Position numbers and translations under genes: made by a program
Virus record (IMG/VR): IMGVR_UViG_3300023181_000042
Location: 1 to 46,673 of that record
From: a virus
Reading direction: 5' to 3' (one strand)
Length of the DNA: 46,673 nt
Notes under the pieces: model-generated
Database searches by the model: none
Told to the model about the DNA's origin: nothing
What the model saw: the letters and a program-made list of their open reading frames with translations, nothing else
In this document: piece after piece, positions 1-46,673 of the stretch
Layout: every line of letters begins with the position of its first letter
Numbering within the stretch: the stretch's first letter is position 1

Positions 1-34
1 TGAGCCTTTTGGTTCTTACGGATATGGGGAATGA
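1..34 (+). CDS. Tail protein, C-terminal end only (partial)
   Basis: The last ten codons and stop (reading EPFGSYGYGE) of the minor tail protein found complete at 44865-46067. It is cut by the window start and repeats the 3' end of that gene exactly. Its TGA overlaps an ATG at 31. Confidence 0.85.
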   Translation, partial: EPFGSYGYGE

Positions 35-640
35 CTATGGCGATTGATCTTCCGGCGATTGGTGAGGCCAATTGGGGTACGAAGCTGAATGCGGCCCTGA
101 CTGAGTTGAATGGTGTGGGGGTGGTTGCTGTTGCGGCGAAGGATGCTGCGGTGGCTGCTGCTGCTTCTGTTCCGTCTGATGCGACTATTGCGGCGACGTA
201 TGCGACGAAGGTTTCTCCGGCGTTCTCTGGTACTCCTACGGGCCTGACGAAGGCGCATGTGGGGTTGTCGAATGTGGATAACACGTCGGATGTGAATAAG
301 CCGGTGTCCACTGCTCAGGCGACGGCTATTGCGTTGAAGGTGAGCACGTCGTTGGTGGGGGCGAATTCGGGTGTGGCTCCGTTGGATTCGTCCGGCAAGG
401 TGCCGTCCGCAAACCTGCCCACCGCGGCGACCGCCAGTGTTCTGACTCCGGGCACGTATGCTGCACGCCCGACCGCTTCTTCGGCAGGAGCGAACACTCT
501 GTACTACGCCACCGATGTTCCTGAGTGCTACTTGTCGAATGGTACGTCGTGGTCTGTGGTTGGTTCGGGTGGCAGCGAGCTTGCGGTTGCGGTTGTGACT
601 ACGACGAGTCTTGCGCAGGGTCCGGCGTTTGCGAACATGC
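1..640. repeat. Terminal redundancy, left copy
   Basis: These 640 bases align without gaps to 46034-46673. I count 15 substitutions: 11 are silent in the fibre gene and four change residues (Ala to Ser, Asn to Ser, Val to Ala, Thr to Ala). The match starts exactly at the first base of the window, inside a gene. That is what a circular or circularly permuted genome looks like after assembly, rather than a biological tandem duplication. The excess of silent changes shows the two versions are real relatives under selection, not random sequencing error. Confidence 0.9.
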
Positions 641-3277: not shown

Positions 3278-3976
3278 ATGCCACATCCGCTGCGTAGCTT
3301 CAACATCCCTAACGGCGCACAGTTCGGTGCTCGCCGCCTTAGCGGCAAGGGGCACGCCGGTACCGACTACCACCCGAAGTCGAATCAAGACGGCGATCCG
3401 ATCTACGGAACCCTTGACGGTGGGCGCATCAGTGCGAAGGGTTACGGGCCATCCCCGGTGAACGGGTTCGGGCACTGGGTCAAAGTCGCCTATCCGGGTG
3501 GCATAGAGACGACGAACGCGCACATGCGCGAACCGAGTCCTTGGGCGGTCGGTGCTGCAGTGGGGCCGTCAACCGTCATCGGCTACGTCGGGCACACGGG
3601 CAACGCGGTTATCGCTGACCCGCCCGGTTCCCATGTTCACCACGAGCTGCGGGTGAACGGTGTGCTCAAAGATCCGTTCGCCTATTACGGCGGCAACGCC
3701 ACCGCCTCCATCAACAGCAAGCCGATCGCTGCTGTGTCAGATCCGATCAAGGAAGACGAAGACATGTACCTAGTAATCGACAAGGGCACGCCGCAGAAGC
3801 CCTCGACCGGAACGTATGTTGTGAACGCGGAAGGTTGCACGGGCATCAGCGCAGGCGTCGAGTCGTCGTTGATGCGTCTGTTCAAGGTCGACCGGTCGGA
3901 GATTCTTCTCCTCATGAAGACGGAAATCGAAGAACTCGACGGCTTCCTGCGCGCCAACGCACGCCTGAACCGCTAG
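3278..3976 (+). CDS. M23-family (LytM-type) endopeptidase, endolysin
   Basis: A 232-residue probable endolysin that cleaves peptide cross-bridges of host peptidoglycan. Zinc ligands and the active site follow the LytM pattern: H26-x3-D30 in HAGTD, H82 in NAHM, and the HxH pair H119/H121 in GSHVHHEL. The catalytic domain spans about 12-140. The C-terminal 80 residues have no recognised motif and probably bind the wall. There is no signal peptide, so export would depend on the small membrane proteins downstream. Its stop shares the palindrome CTAG (3973-3976) with the stop of the convergent next gene. Confidence 0.88.
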   Translation: MPHPLRSFNIPNGAQFGARRLSGKGHAGTDYHPKSNQDGDPIYGTLDGGRISAKGYGPSPVNGFGHWVKVAYPGGIETTNAHMREPSPWAVGAAVGPSTVIGYVGHTGNAVIADPPGSHVHHELRVNGVLKDPFAYYGGNATASINSKPIAAVSDPIKEDEDMYLVIDKGTPQKPSTGTYVVNAEGCTGISAGVESSLMRLFKVDRSEILLLMKTEIEELDGFLRANARLNR

Positions 3977-6359: not shown

Positions 6360-6679
6360 CCTTCATCCTCCACATATTCTTCGGACGCCCGAGAGGTGAG
6401 GGCGGTCACTACTTGCCGCAGATCCTCCGTGAGCCTGCTGATCTGCGCCTCGACCGTTAGCCGACCGAGGGGGCGAAGTTCGGCTTCTGGGATGGATGCT
6501 TCCAGCTTTGCGATGGCCGATTCGATTTCTTCTAGGTTGACAGATGTGGTCCCGTTGCGGACTGCATCTGCATGCGCAATCGCCTTTGACCCAGCAGCGA
6601 GCGCACTCGCGAATGTCGCGTCTTCTGCGTCTTTGGCGACATCATCCCAGAACCGTCCGAACGCGATTGACTCACTCAT
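6356..6679 (-). CDS. Uncharacterised helical protein
   Basis: A 107-residue, Ala/Glu-rich protein, predicted largely helical with heptad-like Leu/Ile spacing at 50-90. It overlaps both neighbours by ATGA. Co-transcribed with a ribbon-helix-helix protein, so a partner or co-regulator is possible, but nothing in the sequence proves it. Confidence 0.65.
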   Translation of the reverse strand: MSESIAFGRFWDDVAKDAEDATFASALAAGSKAIAHADAVRNGTTSVNLEEIESAIAKLEASIPEAELRPLGRLTVEAQISRLTEDLRQVVTALTSRASEEYVEDEG

Positions 6680-7073: not shown

Positions 7074-7519
7074 GCGCGCGCCCACTGGTGTTTGGCGCAC
7101 GGAATTGTCTCTGTCGGCTCACCACAGACCGCACACCCGTAAATCACGCCGTCTTCACCGAGGACGTCAGGCGCTTCGCCCTTTGTCCACGGTGCTTCGA
7201 TGCAGGCGGTGAGGCGATCGGCCTCCCCCTCCCAATATGCGATGCCGACTAGTGCATCCTGGTACGCGGCGGGCCAATCTTCGCGGCCGATCTGCTCCGG
7301 GACCGCCAGATCCTTTTTTGCCTTTGTCAACGCCGAGTCGCTTTCGGCAAGTTCGTGCTCCCGCGCGTGAAGATTGTCCCACAGCGAGTTCACCTCTTCA
7401 GCCAGTTCCAGTAGCAGCCGCGGAACGCTGTCCTTCAGCGTCGGCGGCACCCCTGTAAGGGTCTGCAGGTAAGCGGACATCGCCTTGGCATCCGTCACGA
7501 TGGGGTCTTCCTTCGTCAT
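7070..7519 (-). CDS. Helical protein with C-terminal zinc motif
   Basis: A 149-residue protein. Residues 30-110 are charged and helical. The C-terminus has CAVCGEPTETIPCAKH, a likely C-x2-C...C-x2-H zinc knuckle. A good ribosome site AGGGAG precedes ATG 7519. It is the first gene after the operator-like repeats at 7539-7582 and probably leads the leftward unit. Function unknown. Confidence 0.65.
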   Translation of the reverse strand: MTKEDPIVTDAKAMSAYLQTLTGVPPTLKDSVPRLLLELAEEVNSLWDNLHAREHELAESDSALTKAKKDLAVPEQIGREDWPAAYQDALVGIAYWEGEADRLTACIEAPWTKGEAPDVLGEDGVIYGCAVCGEPTETIPCAKHQWARA

Positions 7520-7538
7520 GCTGCACTCCCTAAATCGG

Positions 7539-7582
7539 TGTACATACACCATACCAAAGAAGGCTCCGCATGTACATACACC
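7539..7582 (-). promoter_or_regulatory. Two 12-bp operator-like repeats
   Basis: GGTGTATGTACA (minus-strand reading) occurs exactly at 7539-7550 and 7571-7582, 32 bp apart, about three helical turns. The first copy extends to the palindrome GGTGTA-TG-TACACC. They lie upstream of the 7519 start, where a regulator of the leftward unit should bind. Confidence 0.5.
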
Positions 7583-7856: not shown

Positions 7857-7916
7857 GCAGGAATGGTACGCGCGGTAACCTAAAAGGGATCAGGCAAAAC
7901 CGGATGTGCACACCAC

Positions 7917-8160
7917 TGTGTAGTTCTCGCCAAGTCGGATCGCCGCACATCCCAGTAGATAAAAGGGATGCGCCTCTGTAGCTCAATGGAAGAGCAATTC
8001 CGTCCTAAGGAATGACAGGGGCTTTTTTGCTGCCTATATTGCAGGCCGAAATAGCCGTTTTGCCCAGTGTTTATAAGGGTTTTCAGGATGGCATTGCTAA
8101 CAGTGGCAACTCTATGGTTTGCCGGTAGTTGTGTAGACCTTTGTGTAGTCTTGGTGTACT
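7917..8160 (+). repeat. GTGTAG sites flanking the tRNA-like element (integrase arm-site candidates)
   Basis: GTGTAG occurs at 7918-7923 on the left, and at 8131-8136, 8143-8148 and (as GTGTAC) 8154-8159 on the right, all in one orientation. The right cluster repeats every 11-12 bp. Short direct repeats on both sides of a core are typical of integrase arm-binding sites. Confidence 0.45.
7972..8022 (+). other. T-armless tRNA-Arg(CCU)-like element, candidate attP core
   Basis: The sequence folds as a tRNA lacking the T arm. Acceptor stem 7972-7978/8016-8022 has 7 bp. T8-A9 is followed by D arm GCTC/GAGC (7981-7995). The anticodon arm is ATTCC/GGAAT (7997-8013) with loop GTCCTAA, giving anticodon CCT (8004-8006) and U33 in place. 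Only two bases link this to the 3' acceptor strand, so variable loop and T arm are missing. There is no CCA; six T follow at 8023. A working bacterial tRNA is unlikely. The best readings are an attP core copied from a host tRNA-Arg gene, or a deleted tRNA gene now acting as a terminator. Confidence 0.5.
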
Positions 8161-8233: not shown

Positions 8234-8392
8234 GTGACCGACTTTAACACAACCTTCCATAGAAGACCCGTGCACATCGGCGTCATCAACGGCGCGGTGT
8301 GGAGTGCGCACGACAGAGATGGTGCCCACAAGGGCGTGGGCAACACCAACTCAACAAACCTCAGCATCACCGATGTAAGGAGTGCAGCATGA
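8234..8392 (+). CDS. Small early protein, GTG start
   Basis: A 52-residue frame from GTG 8234, with AAGGA (8223-8227) six bases upstream and an ATGA overlap with the next gene. Both signals support it. Rich in Asn, Thr and His; no recognised domain. Confidence 0.55.
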   Translation: MTDFNTTFHRRPVHIGVINGAVWSAHDRDGAHKGVGNTNSTNLSITDVRSAA

Positions 8393-9308: not shown

Positions 9309-9514
9309 TCCCGCGCTGGTATCGGGAGGAGAAGCGGTTGCAGCGCCTACGCGATCGGCCCGAGGCGACCCGAGCCCGAGCCGCTCGAATCCGGGCGGAG
9401 CGGGCGGCACTGGCACACCTACTGCGCTCCCAGATGGATTCCATGAAACGAGCGCACCCGGGCGTATTCACCCCGGAATTCAACCGATCACAGGGATGGA
9501 CAGAAGCCCCATGA
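9305..9514 (+). CDS. IPRWYR-family small protein, copy 2
   Basis: A 69-residue, Arg-rich paralogue of the leftward protein at 6870-7073: same IPRWYREEKRLQ start and RSQGWTE end. Start is GTG 9305, overlapping the preceding stop. It directly precedes and overlaps the integrase, so it may be expressed with it. The basic core would suit nucleic-acid binding. Confidence 0.7.
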   Translation: MIPRWYREEKRLQRLRDRPEATRARAARIRAERAALAHLLRSQMDSMKRAHPGVFTPEFNRSQGWTEAP

Positions 9515-10758
9515 GCCCACGTACTCGTAAGTCTGGTGATGGCGCTCTCTACTACGACAAGAAACGCGACCTGTGGATTGGCGTGTTCGACAACGGGACG
9601 AAACCGGACGGGTCGCGTAAGCAAGTTCGGGTCAGCTCACGGTCGCAAACCAAAGCCCGCGAAAAGATGGACGCGAAGAAAGCCGAAATCAAAGCCAACT
9701 ACGGCGAACCATTCTCCAACCAGACCGTCGCAGAGTGGGGCGAATACTGGCTGAAAGAGATCCAGCAGCCGAAGATGAAACCAGGACCGTGGCGTTCCTA
9801 CAGCTCCATGTGGAAGAACTGGATTCTGAAGCCTATCGGGAAGCTGAAAGTCAAAGAGGTGCGGCCATCTGATCTGCGCCGCATCTACGACAACATCGCG
9901 CGCGCGGACAAGTCCGATGCTACCCGGCTCAAAGCACACGTCGTCATGTCATCCATGTTCGAAGCCGCACGCCTCGAAGGTGTGACCGGAGTCAACGTCG
10001 CCAAGAACATCCGACCACCCAAAGTCATCCGCGGCGACCGTGCAGCACGCAGCACATTCGAACCCGACGTGACACTGCGCATCCTCCAAGAAGCCCTCAA
10101 CCACCGACACCCCACCAAGTGGATCGTCTCGCTGTACGCAGGCATCCGACAAGGGGAGCGGCTAGGGGCAACCATCGATTCCGTCGACCTCGTACGTGGC
10201 GTGTTCACCGTCCAATGGAACCTCGTAGAAGGCAACTACGAACACGGATGCGGCGGCACATGCGGGAAACGTGCGGCTGGCTGGTGCCCCTCTAAGCGCC
10301 TCATAATTCCCCAAGGCATCGTCCACCGCATTCTGCGCGGACGGCTCATGCTCGTGCCACCCAAGAGCGGAGAAGCACGATCCTTCTCCCTCCCGCCAAC
10401 ACTGGTCGACCTACTCGAGAAGCACATCGCCGAGCTCAGCCTGCAAGACAATCCGCACAGCCTCCTATGGCCCGCCGCTGACGGTCGACCGATGTCAAGC
10501 CGCGACGATCAAGCCGAGTGGAAAGCACTCATCGCAGCAGCCGGCGTCAAGGATGAGTCGATAACTAGCTATTGGGCGCGGCACACAGCAATCAGCGACC
10601 TATCCGCATCCGGCGTAACCGACCGCGCAATCGGCGACATGGTAGGACACCGGTCACCAGGGGTCACGGGCAACTACACGCACCTGTCCCGACAGGACAG
10701 CATCGACGCCATGAAGAAGCTGGAAGAACGCCGGAACGCTACACCCGCTACCAAGTAG
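9511..10758 (+). CDS. int: Tyrosine-type integrase
   Basis: A 415-residue site-specific recombinase. The N-terminal arm-binding domain (1-65) and core-binding domain (about 70-170) precede the catalytic domain. Catalytic residues can be placed as Arg213 (GIRQGE), Lys285 (PPKSGEA), Arg357-His358 in YWARHT, His380 (GHRS) and nucleophile Tyr389. The first position of the usual HxxR box is Tyr354 instead of His. An insert at 243-260 holds Cys247, Cys251 and Cys259 with His245, a knuckle-like insertion I recall from other actinophage integrases. ATG 9511 overlaps the preceding stop; an upstream extension in this frame is only overlap with two real genes. It should recombine attP near 8.0 kb. Confidence 0.93.
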   Translation: MSPRTRKSGDGALYYDKKRDLWIGVFDNGTKPDGSRKQVRVSSRSQTKAREKMDAKKAEIKANYGEPFSNQTVAEWGEYWLKEIQQPKMKPGPWRSYSSMWKNWILKPIGKLKVKEVRPSDLRRIYDNIARADKSDATRLKAHVVMSSMFEAARLEGVTGVNVAKNIRPPKVIRGDRAARSTFEPDVTLRILQEALNHRHPTKWIVSLYAGIRQGERLGATIDSVDLVRGVFTVQWNLVEGNYEHGCGGTCGKRAAGWCPSKRLIIPQGIVHRILRGRLMLVPPKSGEARSFSLPPTLVDLLEKHIAELSLQDNPHSLLWPAADGRPMSSRDDQAEWKALIAAAGVKDESITSYWARHTAISDLSASGVTDRAIGDMVGHRSPGVTGNYTHLSRQDSIDAMKKLEERRNATPATK

Positions 10759-11364: not shown

Positions 11365-11415
11365 CCCGAAATCATTGCATATAGGACGGAAATGCGGAAT
11401 TCGTGTTGCGCATCC

Positions 11416-11448
11416 GTTCCATATGTGGCAAAGTAACTCATATGGAAC
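11416..11448. promoter_or_regulatory. 10-bp inverted repeat overlapping a start codon
   Basis: GTTCCATATG (11416-11425) and CATATGGAAC (11439-11448) are perfect inverted copies 13 bp apart. The right half contains ATG 11442. The spacer holds AAAGTA, a possible -10, which would give an almost leaderless message. A protein bound here would cover promoter, start site and first codons together. Confidence 0.55.
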
Positions 11449-11681
11449 AGAGCCCGCTTAGAAGAACCGCCCTCGCGGAAGAGCTTCTTGCAGAAATGGC
11501 GCGCAAGCGTGTCAGCAAGACGAAGGTGGCCGAAGCTGCCGGAATCCACCCGGATACCCTCACCCGCAAGCTCGCGAACGGCGAGAAGTTTGAAATCTCC
11601 GCATTTCAGCTTCTCGCCGTTTGCGCCTACCTTGACGTGCCGTACGCCGAACTCATCGAACGAGCGCGAGCAGCAGCATGA
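11442..11681 (+). CDS. Cro-like HTH regulator
   Basis: A 79-residue HTH protein. The motif is KTKVAEAAGIHPDTLTRKL (about 27-45) within an XRE-type domain. It is divergent from the leftward repressor and heads the long early rightward operon, as Cro does. No ribosome site precedes the ATG, consistent with a leaderless transcript from the overlapping operator-promoter. Confidence 0.68.
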   Translation: MEQSPLRRTALAEELLAEMARKRVSKTKVAEAAGIHPDTLTRKLANGEKFEISAFQLLAVCAYLDVPYAELIERARAAA

Positions 11682-11896
11682 ACGGCCTGCGCATGGAGTT
11701 CGCGCCCGCCCTCATGACCCGCGAGACAGCGGCCTACTACATCGACGGATCACTCCGCGACATAGACCGCCTCCGCGAAACGAAAGAAATCACCCCCGTT
11801 GGCACGGGCAGGAGAGTCAAGTACCGCAAGAGCGAACTTGACGCCTACATTGCCAAGATCGCCGAACGCCCCGCAACGAGGGGGCAGAACTCGTGA
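11678..11896 (+). CDS. MerR/AlpA-type HTH protein (second Xis candidate)
   Basis: A 72-residue protein of the helix-turn-helix type used by excisionases and AlpA. LMTRETAAYYIDGSLRDIDR is the HTH, and GRRVKYRKSELDAYIAK is the wing and final helix. ATGA overlap with the Cro-like gene. It competes with the protein at 10930 for the excisionase role. Confidence 0.65.
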   Translation: MNGLRMEFAPALMTRETAAYYIDGSLRDIDRLRETKEITPVGTGRRVKYRKSELDAYIAKIAERPATRGQNS

Positions 11897-25826: not shown

Positions 25827-25898
25827 TGGCGAGTAGCTCAGCGGCAGAGCATCTGACTGTTAATCAGATTCGCGCAGGTTCGAATCCTGCCTTGCCAG
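25827..25898 (+). tRNA. tRNA-Asn (anticodon GTT)
   Basis: A complete cloverleaf: acceptor TGGCGAG/CTTGCCA with one G-T pair, D arm GCTC/GAGC, anticodon arm TCTGA/TCAGA with loop CTGTTAA (anticodon GTT), and T arm GCAGG/CCTGC with loop TTCGAAT. The discriminator is G, then CA rather than an encoded CCA. Confidence 0.93.
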
Positions 25899-25926
25899 CA
25901 CATAACTAAAGACGGTTGGAGTTGCA

Positions 25927-44868: not shown

Positions 44869-46067
44869 GGGCGGCTTCGGACGGTCTTGCTTCGGTTCTG
44901 CAGGATGACTTTTCGACACGGCTTATCGTGGATTCTTTCTACGGGCCGAACCGCACGCACGCTGACTTGCCGTCTAACTCTTGGTCGCTGCGGTGGGATT
45001 CGGAGGCTGCGGTCAAGTCTGGCGGCAAACTGACGATTGTCTATACCCCTGAGGTGGCGGAGTCATTGACTCCTACGCAGTTCGCTGATGTTCTCGCCCC
45101 GTTCGGGCAGGAGGTAAACCTGCTGCTCGAGGTGTCGGCCGGCGACTTCGCGGAGACGGTGCAGCTCGGCCATTACCGGATAACCGCGGTGCCGGATGCC
45201 CGTGATGCTTTCGCCGACTTTCTGGGCGGCACGATTGTCGTTGGCTCCACGGTTACTGTGCGGTTGCAGTCGCGCGACATTGCGGTGCAACGCGAAGGTT
45301 TCCGGTCAGAGCAGTCACCCCCGGATCTTTCGTCGTGTTGGGCGGAGATTCAGCGTTTGACGGGCATGCAGGTTCTGCGTTCCGTGGGCGACAAGGCCAT
45401 CCCCAACAACGTCGTCTATCTGGCGGAGCAGGGTGGCCGATTGAAGGCTGTCCAAGCGCTGGCCGAGGTATTGGGTGGGGTCGAGTATGTGACCCCCGAT
45501 GGTGCCATGTCGGTTATCCCGAATGAGCCCGGTGATGTTGTTGCCGAGCTGGTGTTGGGGGATCACGGGACGATCATCGATGTTGCCCATTCGATGGAGT
45601 CCGAGGGCGTCTACAACGAGGTTATCGGCAACTTTCAGACCGAGGATCGCACCCCGATTTATGCGGTTGCTTCTATCACTGATGGGCCGCTCTCGGTCGA
45701 TGGCCCGTACGGGAGGTATACCCGCTATTACGCGTCGCCTTTCGTGCAGACCAAAGCTGCCGCGCAGTCCGCGGTCGACGCGATCCTGACTCAGGTTTCA
45801 TCCGCTCAGACGTACCGGGTGCCTGTGACCTGCGTTATTGACCCGCGGCTCGAGATGGGCGATGTGGTGTCTGTGCAGCGCCCCCAGGGGCGTCTGCTGG
45901 TTGGGCGGATCGTCAACATTTCTATGGGCGATTCCCGGCTGATGGATTTGAACCTTGATGTCACCCGCATAACAACTTGGTCGGCTCCGACCTCTCCTGA
46001 TTGGGAGATTCACCCGACGACTGGTTACGGACTTGAGCCTTTTGGTTCTTACGGATATGGGGAATGA
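44865..46067 (+). CDS. Minor tail protein (tail-tip type)
   Basis: A 400-residue protein from GTG 44865. The opening MRAASDGLASVLQDDFSTRL and the FYGPNRTHADLPSNSW segment match the usual start of actinophage tail-tip proteins. A mostly beta body follows, with YNEVIGNFQTEDRTPIYA and RLEMGDVVSVQRP segments. The longer frame upstream is poor and overlaps a hairpin. It ends by ATGA at the fibre gene. Confidence 0.78.
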   Translation: MRAASDGLASVLQDDFSTRLIVDSFYGPNRTHADLPSNSWSLRWDSEAAVKSGGKLTIVYTPEVAESLTPTQFADVLAPFGQEVNLLLEVSAGDFAETVQLGHYRITAVPDARDAFADFLGGTIVVGSTVTVRLQSRDIAVQREGFRSEQSPPDLSSCWAEIQRLTGMQVLRSVGDKAIPNNVVYLAEQGGRLKAVQALAEVLGGVEYVTPDGAMSVIPNEPGDVVAELVLGDHGTIIDVAHSMESEGVYNEVIGNFQTEDRTPIYAVASITDGPLSVDGPYGRYTRYYASPFVQTKAAAQSAVDAILTQVSSAQTYRVPVTCVIDPRLEMGDVVSVQRPQGRLLVGRIVNISMGDSRLMDLNLDVTRITTWSAPTSPDWEIHPTTGYGLEPFGSYGYGE

Positions 46068-46673
46068 CTATGGCGATTGATCTTCCGGCGATTGGTGAGG
46101 CCAATTGGGGTACGAAGCTGAATGCGGCGCTGACTGAGTTGAATGGTGTGGGGGTGGTTGCTGTTGCGGCGAAGGATGCTGCGGTGGCTGCTGCTTCTTC
46201 TGTGCCGTCTGATGCGACTATTGCGGCGACGTATGCGACGAAGGTTTCTCCGGCGTTCTCTGGTACTCCTACGGGTCTGACGAAGGCGCATGTGGGGTTG
46301 TCGAGTGTGGATAACACGTCGGATGCGAATAAGCCGGTGTCGACTGCTCAGGCGGCGGCTATTGCGTTGAAGGTGAGCACGTCGCTGGTGGGGGCGAATT
46401 CGGGTGTGGCTCCGTTGGATTCGTCCGGCAAGGTGCCGTCCGCGAACCTGCCCACCGCTGCGACCGCCAGTGTTCTGACTCCGGGCACATATGCTGCACG
46501 CCCGACCGCTTCTTCGGCAGGCGCGAATACTCTGTACTACGCCACTGATGTTCCTGAGTGCTACTTGTCGAATGGTACGTCGTGGTCTGTGGTTGGTTCG
46601 GGTGGCAGCGAGCTTGCGGTTGCGGTTGTGACTACGACGAGTCTTGCGCAGGGTCCGGCGTTTGCGAACATGC
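46034..46673. repeat. Terminal redundancy, right copy
   Basis: Pairs with 1-640 without gaps. The last 110 or so bases are identical to the left copy; differences cluster between 46128 and 46565. Confidence 0.9.
46070..46673 (+). CDS. Tail fibre, variant copy (cut by window end)
   Basis: The first 201 codons of the fibre gene seen complete at 37-951, with four residue changes and 11 silent changes. Ribosome site GGGGA at 46059-46063. It is cut by the window end, not by a stop. Confidence 0.85.
   Translation, partial: MAIDLPAIGEANWGTKLNAALTELNGVGVVAVAAKDAAVAAASSVPSDATIAATYATKVSPAFSGTPTGLTKAHVGLSSVDNTSDANKPVSTAQAAAIALKVSTSLVGANSGVAPLDSSGKVPSANLPTAATASVLTPGTYAARPTASSAGANTLYYATDVPECYLSNGTSWSVVGSGGSELAVAVVTTTSLAQGPAFANM

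Follow-up and report, generated by a model that had tools for sequence, protein, structure and literature searches.

An attP that lies in tRNA sequence usually spans the tRNA from the anticodon to its 3' end. The window analysed here, a stretch of 46,673 nucleotides of viral DNA (IMG/VR record IMGVR_UViG_3300023181_000042), carries at 7972-8022 a tRNA-Arg(CCU) cloverleaf that lacks its T arm, runs directly into TTTTTT and has arm-type repeats on either side. What is a tRNA without most of its 3' side doing 1.5 kb upstream of an integrase gene? We found that it is very probably the core of a 5'-restoring attP of a temperate Microbacteriaceae phage. We favour this reading because of the identity with a host tRNA, the attL and attR of a related prophage and the empty sites in sibling genomes. 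Judged from its sequence, the window core mirrors the usual 3'-half core.

A T-armless cloverleaf between integrase arm sites

The two ends of the window (1-640 and 46034-46673) overlap by 640 bp with 15 mismatches, which is not an exact repeat; the window is therefore an essentially complete, circularly permuted genome of ~46.0 kb. A megablast search of positions 1-25000 against phages gave no match. Its other genes include an N6_N4 DNA methylase (PF01555, 21067-22269) and a YqaJ-type recombinase exonuclease (PF09588, 16768-17448).

The attP is intergenic (Table 1). The sequence-only reading had described here a cloverleaf with acceptor, D and CCU-anticodon arms but no T arm, closed by a 7-bp acceptor stem and ended by six T, with GTGTAG sites on both sides. 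We found all of these features at 7972-8028; of the four TGTGTAG copies in the window, three lie around the element (7917, 8130 and 8142). The acceptor stem has 7 bp, including one U.G pair, and the minimum free energy fold of the element is the T-less cloverleaf, at -21.4 kcal/mol. The fold z-score, obtained on a slightly trimmed segment, is just -0.96 because the folded piece is short. ARAGORN and Rfam did not call the element in the window, as expected given the absent T arm. A simple random model gives a probability of 1.4e-4 for a 7-nt closure that lies at most 8 nt from the anticodon arm and has at least 5 T among the next 8 nt. Neither a discriminator base nor CCA follows the acceptor strand; a deleted tRNA had been offered as one identity for the element, which is probably not a T-arm-less tRNA still serving as a tRNA.

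Arm-type repeats flank the core on both sides and are kept in relatives. On the P side, like sequence stands at the equal position in four freshwater viral contigs, in a further viral contig (L185), in the prophage of a bacterial genome (G096) and in Microbacterium phage R1. The P'-side dyad recurs beside the P' arms of relatives as CTGGCAAACATATGGTTTGCCAG, TAGCAAACATATGGTTTGC and ACCTGCAAACATACGTTTTGCAGGT. The upstream dyad persists with altered arms (GATGCC/GGCATC); we had considered it a hallmark of the 5' type and dropped the idea, since L185, whose core is of the 3' type, has the dyad too. The window integrase is 56-62% identical to the integrases that adjoin the same attP type, and the excisionase-type gene has homologues in the freshwater relatives (75-78%) and, adjoining the integrase gene, in the G096 prophage (63%). 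Further out, a 25-nt inverted repeat (92%; 7516-7540 versus 8368-8392) gives the two gene sets that run outwards from attP a duplicate leader, ribosome site and start codon (GGAGTGCAGCATG), and is reminiscent of the start-associated repeats of cluster K mycobacteriophages.

Table 1. Coordinates in the window of the attP features and neighbouring genes
Feature	Position	Strand	Details
P-side arm-type integrase sites, TGTGCACACCACTGTGTAGT	7905-7924	+	80% direct repeat with 8130-8149
Upstream dyad, CATCCC-AGTAGATAAAA-GGGATG	7948-7970	+	Just before the tRNA part; contains TAGATA (7956-7961)
Copy of host tRNA-Arg(CCU) nt 1-41	7972-8012	+	5' acceptor strand, D arm, anticodon arm; 41/41 identity
5' acceptor strand	7972-7978		GCCTCTG; TA next
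D arm	7981-7995		GCTC-AATGGAA-GAGC; A next
Anticodon arm	7997-8013		ATTCC-GTCCTAA-GGAAT; anticodon CCT at 8004-8006
Anticodon loop, GTCCTAA	8002-8008	+	Probable 7-bp overlap (crossover) between core-type inverted arms ATTCC/GGAAT
3' closing strand and T run	8014-8028	+	GA, CAGGGGC (8016-8022), TTTTTT (8023-8028); proposed tRNA-shaped terminator
P'-side dyad, GTGGCAACTCTATGGTTTGCCGGTAG	8103-8128	+	Conserved beside P' arms in relatives
P'-side arm-type sites, TTGTGTAGACCTTTGTGTAGT	8129-8149	+	Two 8-mers 12 bp apart
Tyrosine integrase gene	9511-10758	+	Pfam PF00589 4e-16, PF14659 2e-7; PHROG integrase 9.6e-50
Probable phage repressor gene	11403-11681	+	phrog_4583 transcriptional repressor, 4e-9
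Probable excisionase (Xis)-type gene	11678-11896	+	phrog_66 excisionase/regulator, 1.6e-4

The core copies the 5' part of a host tRNA-Arg(CCU) gene

In a scan of bacterial genomes, we found that tRNA-Arg(CCU) genes of Microbacteriaceae start GCCTCTGTAGCTCAATGGAAGAGCARTTCCGTCCTAAGGAA. Over nt 1-41, the window is identical at 41 of 41 positions to the AATTCC...GGAA variant of this gene (L050, L061 and L078; Agreia and others), and the identity opens exactly at tRNA nt 1 and stops just past the anticodon arm. The lack of any actinobacterial tRNA-Arg with a matching 5' half had been named as evidence against an attP; the Microbacteriaceae gene matches exactly from its first nucleotide. In three assemblies titled Planococcus, Aeromicrobium and Acidimicrobiaceae (L080, L081 and L129), the tRNA-Arg(CCU) does not differ from that of Microbacteriaceae; these assemblies are probably mislabelled or contaminated.

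From the 3' side of the tRNA, the window element has only 7 nt of the acceptor strand, CAGGGGC, which are the same as in the host; the T arm is missing. The window thus does not carry the tRNA 3' part that a phage with a canonical, 3'-half-restoring attP carries. The exact T-armless pattern occurred in none of 400 Microbacteriaceae genomes, and a prophage of the window phage itself was not found among them.

A scan of viral contigs yielded the same T-less element, GCCTCTG...CCTAAGGAAAGACAGAGGC TTTTCTT, in four related freshwater contigs. In each it sits 0.3 kb before an integrase gene, whose product is 56-57% identical to that of the window; the four contigs are mutually close and count as one lineage. 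They match the common form of tRNA-Arg(CCU) over nt 1-43. Between the window and these contigs, the acceptor strand and D arm are identical at 25 of 25 positions, the anticodon arm at 15 of 17 and the GA plus closure at 8 of 9, against about 50-60% in the flanks and 74% on the P' arm side; by this alignment, no other part of attP is as well conserved as the element. The freshwater closure is CAGAGGC with TTTTCTT, which pairs better with the 5' strand than does the host's own strand. Because this lone change in the closure swaps U·G for U-A, pairing is kept.

A related prophage restores its tRNA from the 5' side

The sequence-only reading had suggested a search for prophages whose attL and attR carry the element. 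Close integrases are present in 2 of the 400 Microbacteriaceae genomes, and in one of these, G096 (integrase 62% identical to that of the window), we found both junctions. A 40-bp repeat, GCCTCTG...CCTAAGGA, is present at each junction, and the sequence TCCGTCCTAAGGA occurs twice in the genome. At attL (contig C37), the host tRNA promoter and host 5' part are followed by the P' dyad, the arm sites and int. At attR (contig C19), phage arm sites and dyad lead to the phage copy of nt 1-40 and then to the host 3' part TTAGGTTGGGGGTTCGAGTCCCTCCAGGGGCACC, in the order P arm, repeat, TTAGGTTGGGGG...CAGGGGCACC. ARAGORN called an intact tRNA-Arg(cct) at attR and none at attL, and the tRNA 3' half is present in a single copy in the genome. 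The phage side of C19 encodes two homologues of window proteins, with an Arc-like repressor 0.9 kb from the junction. The junctions are on two contigs, so the prophage is not visible in one piece; int is whole. The empty site is represented by nine sibling genomes that have the uninterrupted gene behind the same 5' flank, one of them also with the same 3' flank. Ahead of the restored tRNA (L146, ~6410-6500), the GATGCCC...GGGCATC dyad is itself preceded by another strong hairpin, GGGCAGTTCAACTGCCC.

The earlier proposal of a probable attP is thus borne out by the host tRNA identity, the arm sites, the nearby integrase and both junctions of the related prophage, and its puzzle, that the 5' two-thirds of the tRNA are kept, is accounted for by a 5'-restoring attP. 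The GTCCTAA loop is common to attP, attB, attL and attR in all members; by analogy with known anticodon-loop integrases, the crossover probably falls within it. In such a reaction, the integrase would recombine the attP and host tRNA-Arg(CCU) copies of the anticodon-arm region, and phage nt 1 to ~41 would come to stand before the host 3' part, restoring the tRNA at attR, the junction away from int. We observe this tRNA-restoring recombination in the G096 relative and infer it for the window phage. The G096 prophage is without the acceptor closure, which is therefore dispensable for integration and an addition in part of the group.

Related phages carry 3' halves

The attP of L185 (IMG/VR contig 3300026116_000282; integrase 58% identical) shares with the window its arm sites, both dyads, the use of tRNA-Arg(CCU) and the orientation. 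Its core is a conventional tRNA 3' half, behind which stands a simple hairpin terminator. The integrase tree groups L185 with the window, G096 and the freshwater contigs in a single clade (100/100) that has no firm inner branching order. Since L185 has a 3'-half attP and the window one of the 5' type, the attP type has switched within one integrase clade, possibly once or twice. Farther away, tRNA-Thr(CGT) is the target of Microbacterium phage R1 (integrase 44%) and of a related Microbacterium prophage, both of which have 3' halves and hairpin terminators; in genome G156 (integrase 41-42%), the target is tRNA-Arg(CCU), the core is a 3' half and int lies on the opposite side. The window phage would restore the 5' two-thirds of its tRNA, and most of its relatives the 3' half. 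At E<=1e-90, an integrase search of 396 genomes across the order was negative.

The G156 prophage, 46 kb long, lies in the same tRNA-Arg(CCU) gene with a 3'-half core (L148/L149; contig C1, 513.7k and 560.1k). Its cousin integrase faces the other way with respect to the tRNA, so that the near-symmetric anticodon arm is used either way round. In L185, the sequence CTTCGTGGCTATTGGAGGAAC (3626-3664) precedes the 3'-type core and looks like the decayed remains of a tRNA 5' half, with p about 0.013 in a transition-aware alignment and 0.16 under plain scoring. It could be the trace of an earlier 5'-type or whole-tRNA attP. In the 5'-type members, a search for the lost 3' half gave no trace beyond the 7 nt.

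Possible roles of the phage promoter and the closing strand

Recombination on the 5' side would separate the host tRNA from its promoter. In the window, TAGATA lies 10 nt before tRNA nt 1, the spacing of host tRNA -10 elements. Its -10-like score is moderate (4.6), that of the freshwater relatives strong (8.7) and that of G096 weak; from position and score, it could serve as the -10 of the 5' tRNA part that the phage supplies, and the restored tRNA-Arg at attR would then be driven by a promoter from phage DNA. Another promoter-like match, at 8012-8040 and overlapping the closure, was rejected because its -10 differs in relatives (CAATTG) and ~0.8 such matches are expected by chance.

At attL, the same exchange would leave the host promoter and host 5' part pointing into P' and int. 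The closing CAGGGGC and T run stand where the 3'-type relatives have a hairpin terminator, and we lean slightly towards a function as a tRNA-shaped terminator. A terminator scan did not flag the closed cloverleaf, whose 7-bp stem encloses a multiloop and is followed directly by T6. Such a terminator could halt transcription from the orphaned host tRNA promoter before P' and int at attL, and transcription from the phage promoter at the same place in free attP. The sequence-only reading had set attP and tRNA-shaped terminator against each other; the opposition falls, as both fit, the attP firmly and the terminator tentatively. A broader picture, plausible though we hold it with some reserve, is that one 5' tRNA sequence has two fates according to its 3' neighbour, becoming a tRNA at attR and, at attL and attP, a terminator that silences the orphaned promoter, in a clade that flips between 3' and 5' restoration. 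We know of no other T-armless acceptor closure.

A functionless closure would leave the attP reading intact. CAGGGGC may be the leftover of the host 3' acceptor strand, which it matches, in an attP that descends from a whole-tRNA ancestor and lost its T arm; the possible decayed 5' half in L185 (p about 0.013 or 0.16) would fit such an ancestor. We consider this unlikely, although it is the most serious competitor: the freshwater CAGAGGC complements the 5' strand better than the host strand does, the closure is kept at 8 of 9 positions against flanks near 50-60%, the T run straight after the stem is kept as well, and the remaining 3' half has left no other trace.

It is improbable that the T-armless RNA is expressed as a small RNA, for example a tRNA decoy, with its own role in infection besides that of attP. 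The stable fold (-21.4 kcal/mol), the conserved closure and the possible promoter immediately upstream would suit such an RNA; however, restoration of the host tRNA fully accounts for nt 1-41, G096 has no closure, the discriminator base and CCA are absent, and the z-score is -0.96. Less probable still is a tRNA-shaped terminator or decayed tRNA unconnected with integration, which would explain the closure, T run and absent T arm but is contradicted by the arm sites, int, the exact host tRNA identity and the G096 junctions.

Finally, tRNA-dependent lysogeny, in which the host tRNA is destroyed and a phage-encoded tRNA complements it, is practiced by the nearest mycobacteriophage integrases (cluster L, 33%; PMC10865867) and can be dismissed here, since the only tRNA gene of the window, a full tRNA-Asn(GTT) at 25827-25899, is not cognate to the attachment site, ARAGORN found no other tRNA-Arg in the window, the shared core is 41 bp and not about 10, and the G096 relative restores its tRNA.

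Comparison with known attachment systems

The 5'-restoring attP of the window is a variant of a kind that is already known and rare. According to reviews, it is considerably less common for recombination to use the 5' region of tRNA genes (PMC6563490). That paper cites, through Zhao & Williams 2002, rare bacterial elements whose target gene has the reverse orientation and which, like the window phage, recombine with the 5' side of the tRNA gene. The closest parallels are the pTN3/TKV-type elements of Thermococcales (PMC5495485, PMC8371274), in which, as in the window, a 41-bp 5' portion of the tRNA is common to attP and attB and the anticodon loop lies inside the site. There, the restored tRNA loses its original promoter and depends for expression on the element, namely on the integrase promoter, an arrangement seldom met in bacteria (PMC8371274); in the window, a phage promoter may take that part. 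The pTN3/TKV-type elements differ in that their integrases belong to an archaeal family and attP lies inside the int gene, which is split on integration. In the window, by contrast, attP is intergenic with arm sites on either side, and int stays whole. In the literature that we searched, we found no actinophage example of 5'-side tRNA attachment.

Among actinophages, the Fionnbharth/LeBron integrase phamily (PMC10865867) resembles the window in its related integrases (cluster L phages, 33%), its paired arm-type sites on both sides and a crossover that falls within a host tRNA's anticodon region. Its members either restore the 3' half, with a core of 33-52 bp, or restore none and bring their own tRNA; unlike in the window, 5' restoration is absent from the survey list. 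The attP of Microbacterium phage vB_MoxS-R1 (MW073100; integrase 44%) has the arm layout, P' dyad and tRNA direction relative to int of the window, but a 49-bp 3' half of tRNA-Thr(CGT) and an ordinary hairpin terminator; L185 likewise differs by its 3'-half core with an ordinary terminator.

A phage lineage with reversed tRNA use and a sister that uses the same gene conventionally amount to a natural experiment in attP half-switching, in the takeover of a host tRNA promoter by a phage and in the fate of the promoter left behind. It also offers a search rule, in that T-less or 3'-truncated tRNA shapes adjoining integrase genes may be attP sites. Within the same broad integrase group, 5' restoration joins 3' restoration and tRNA-dependent lysogeny as a third option.
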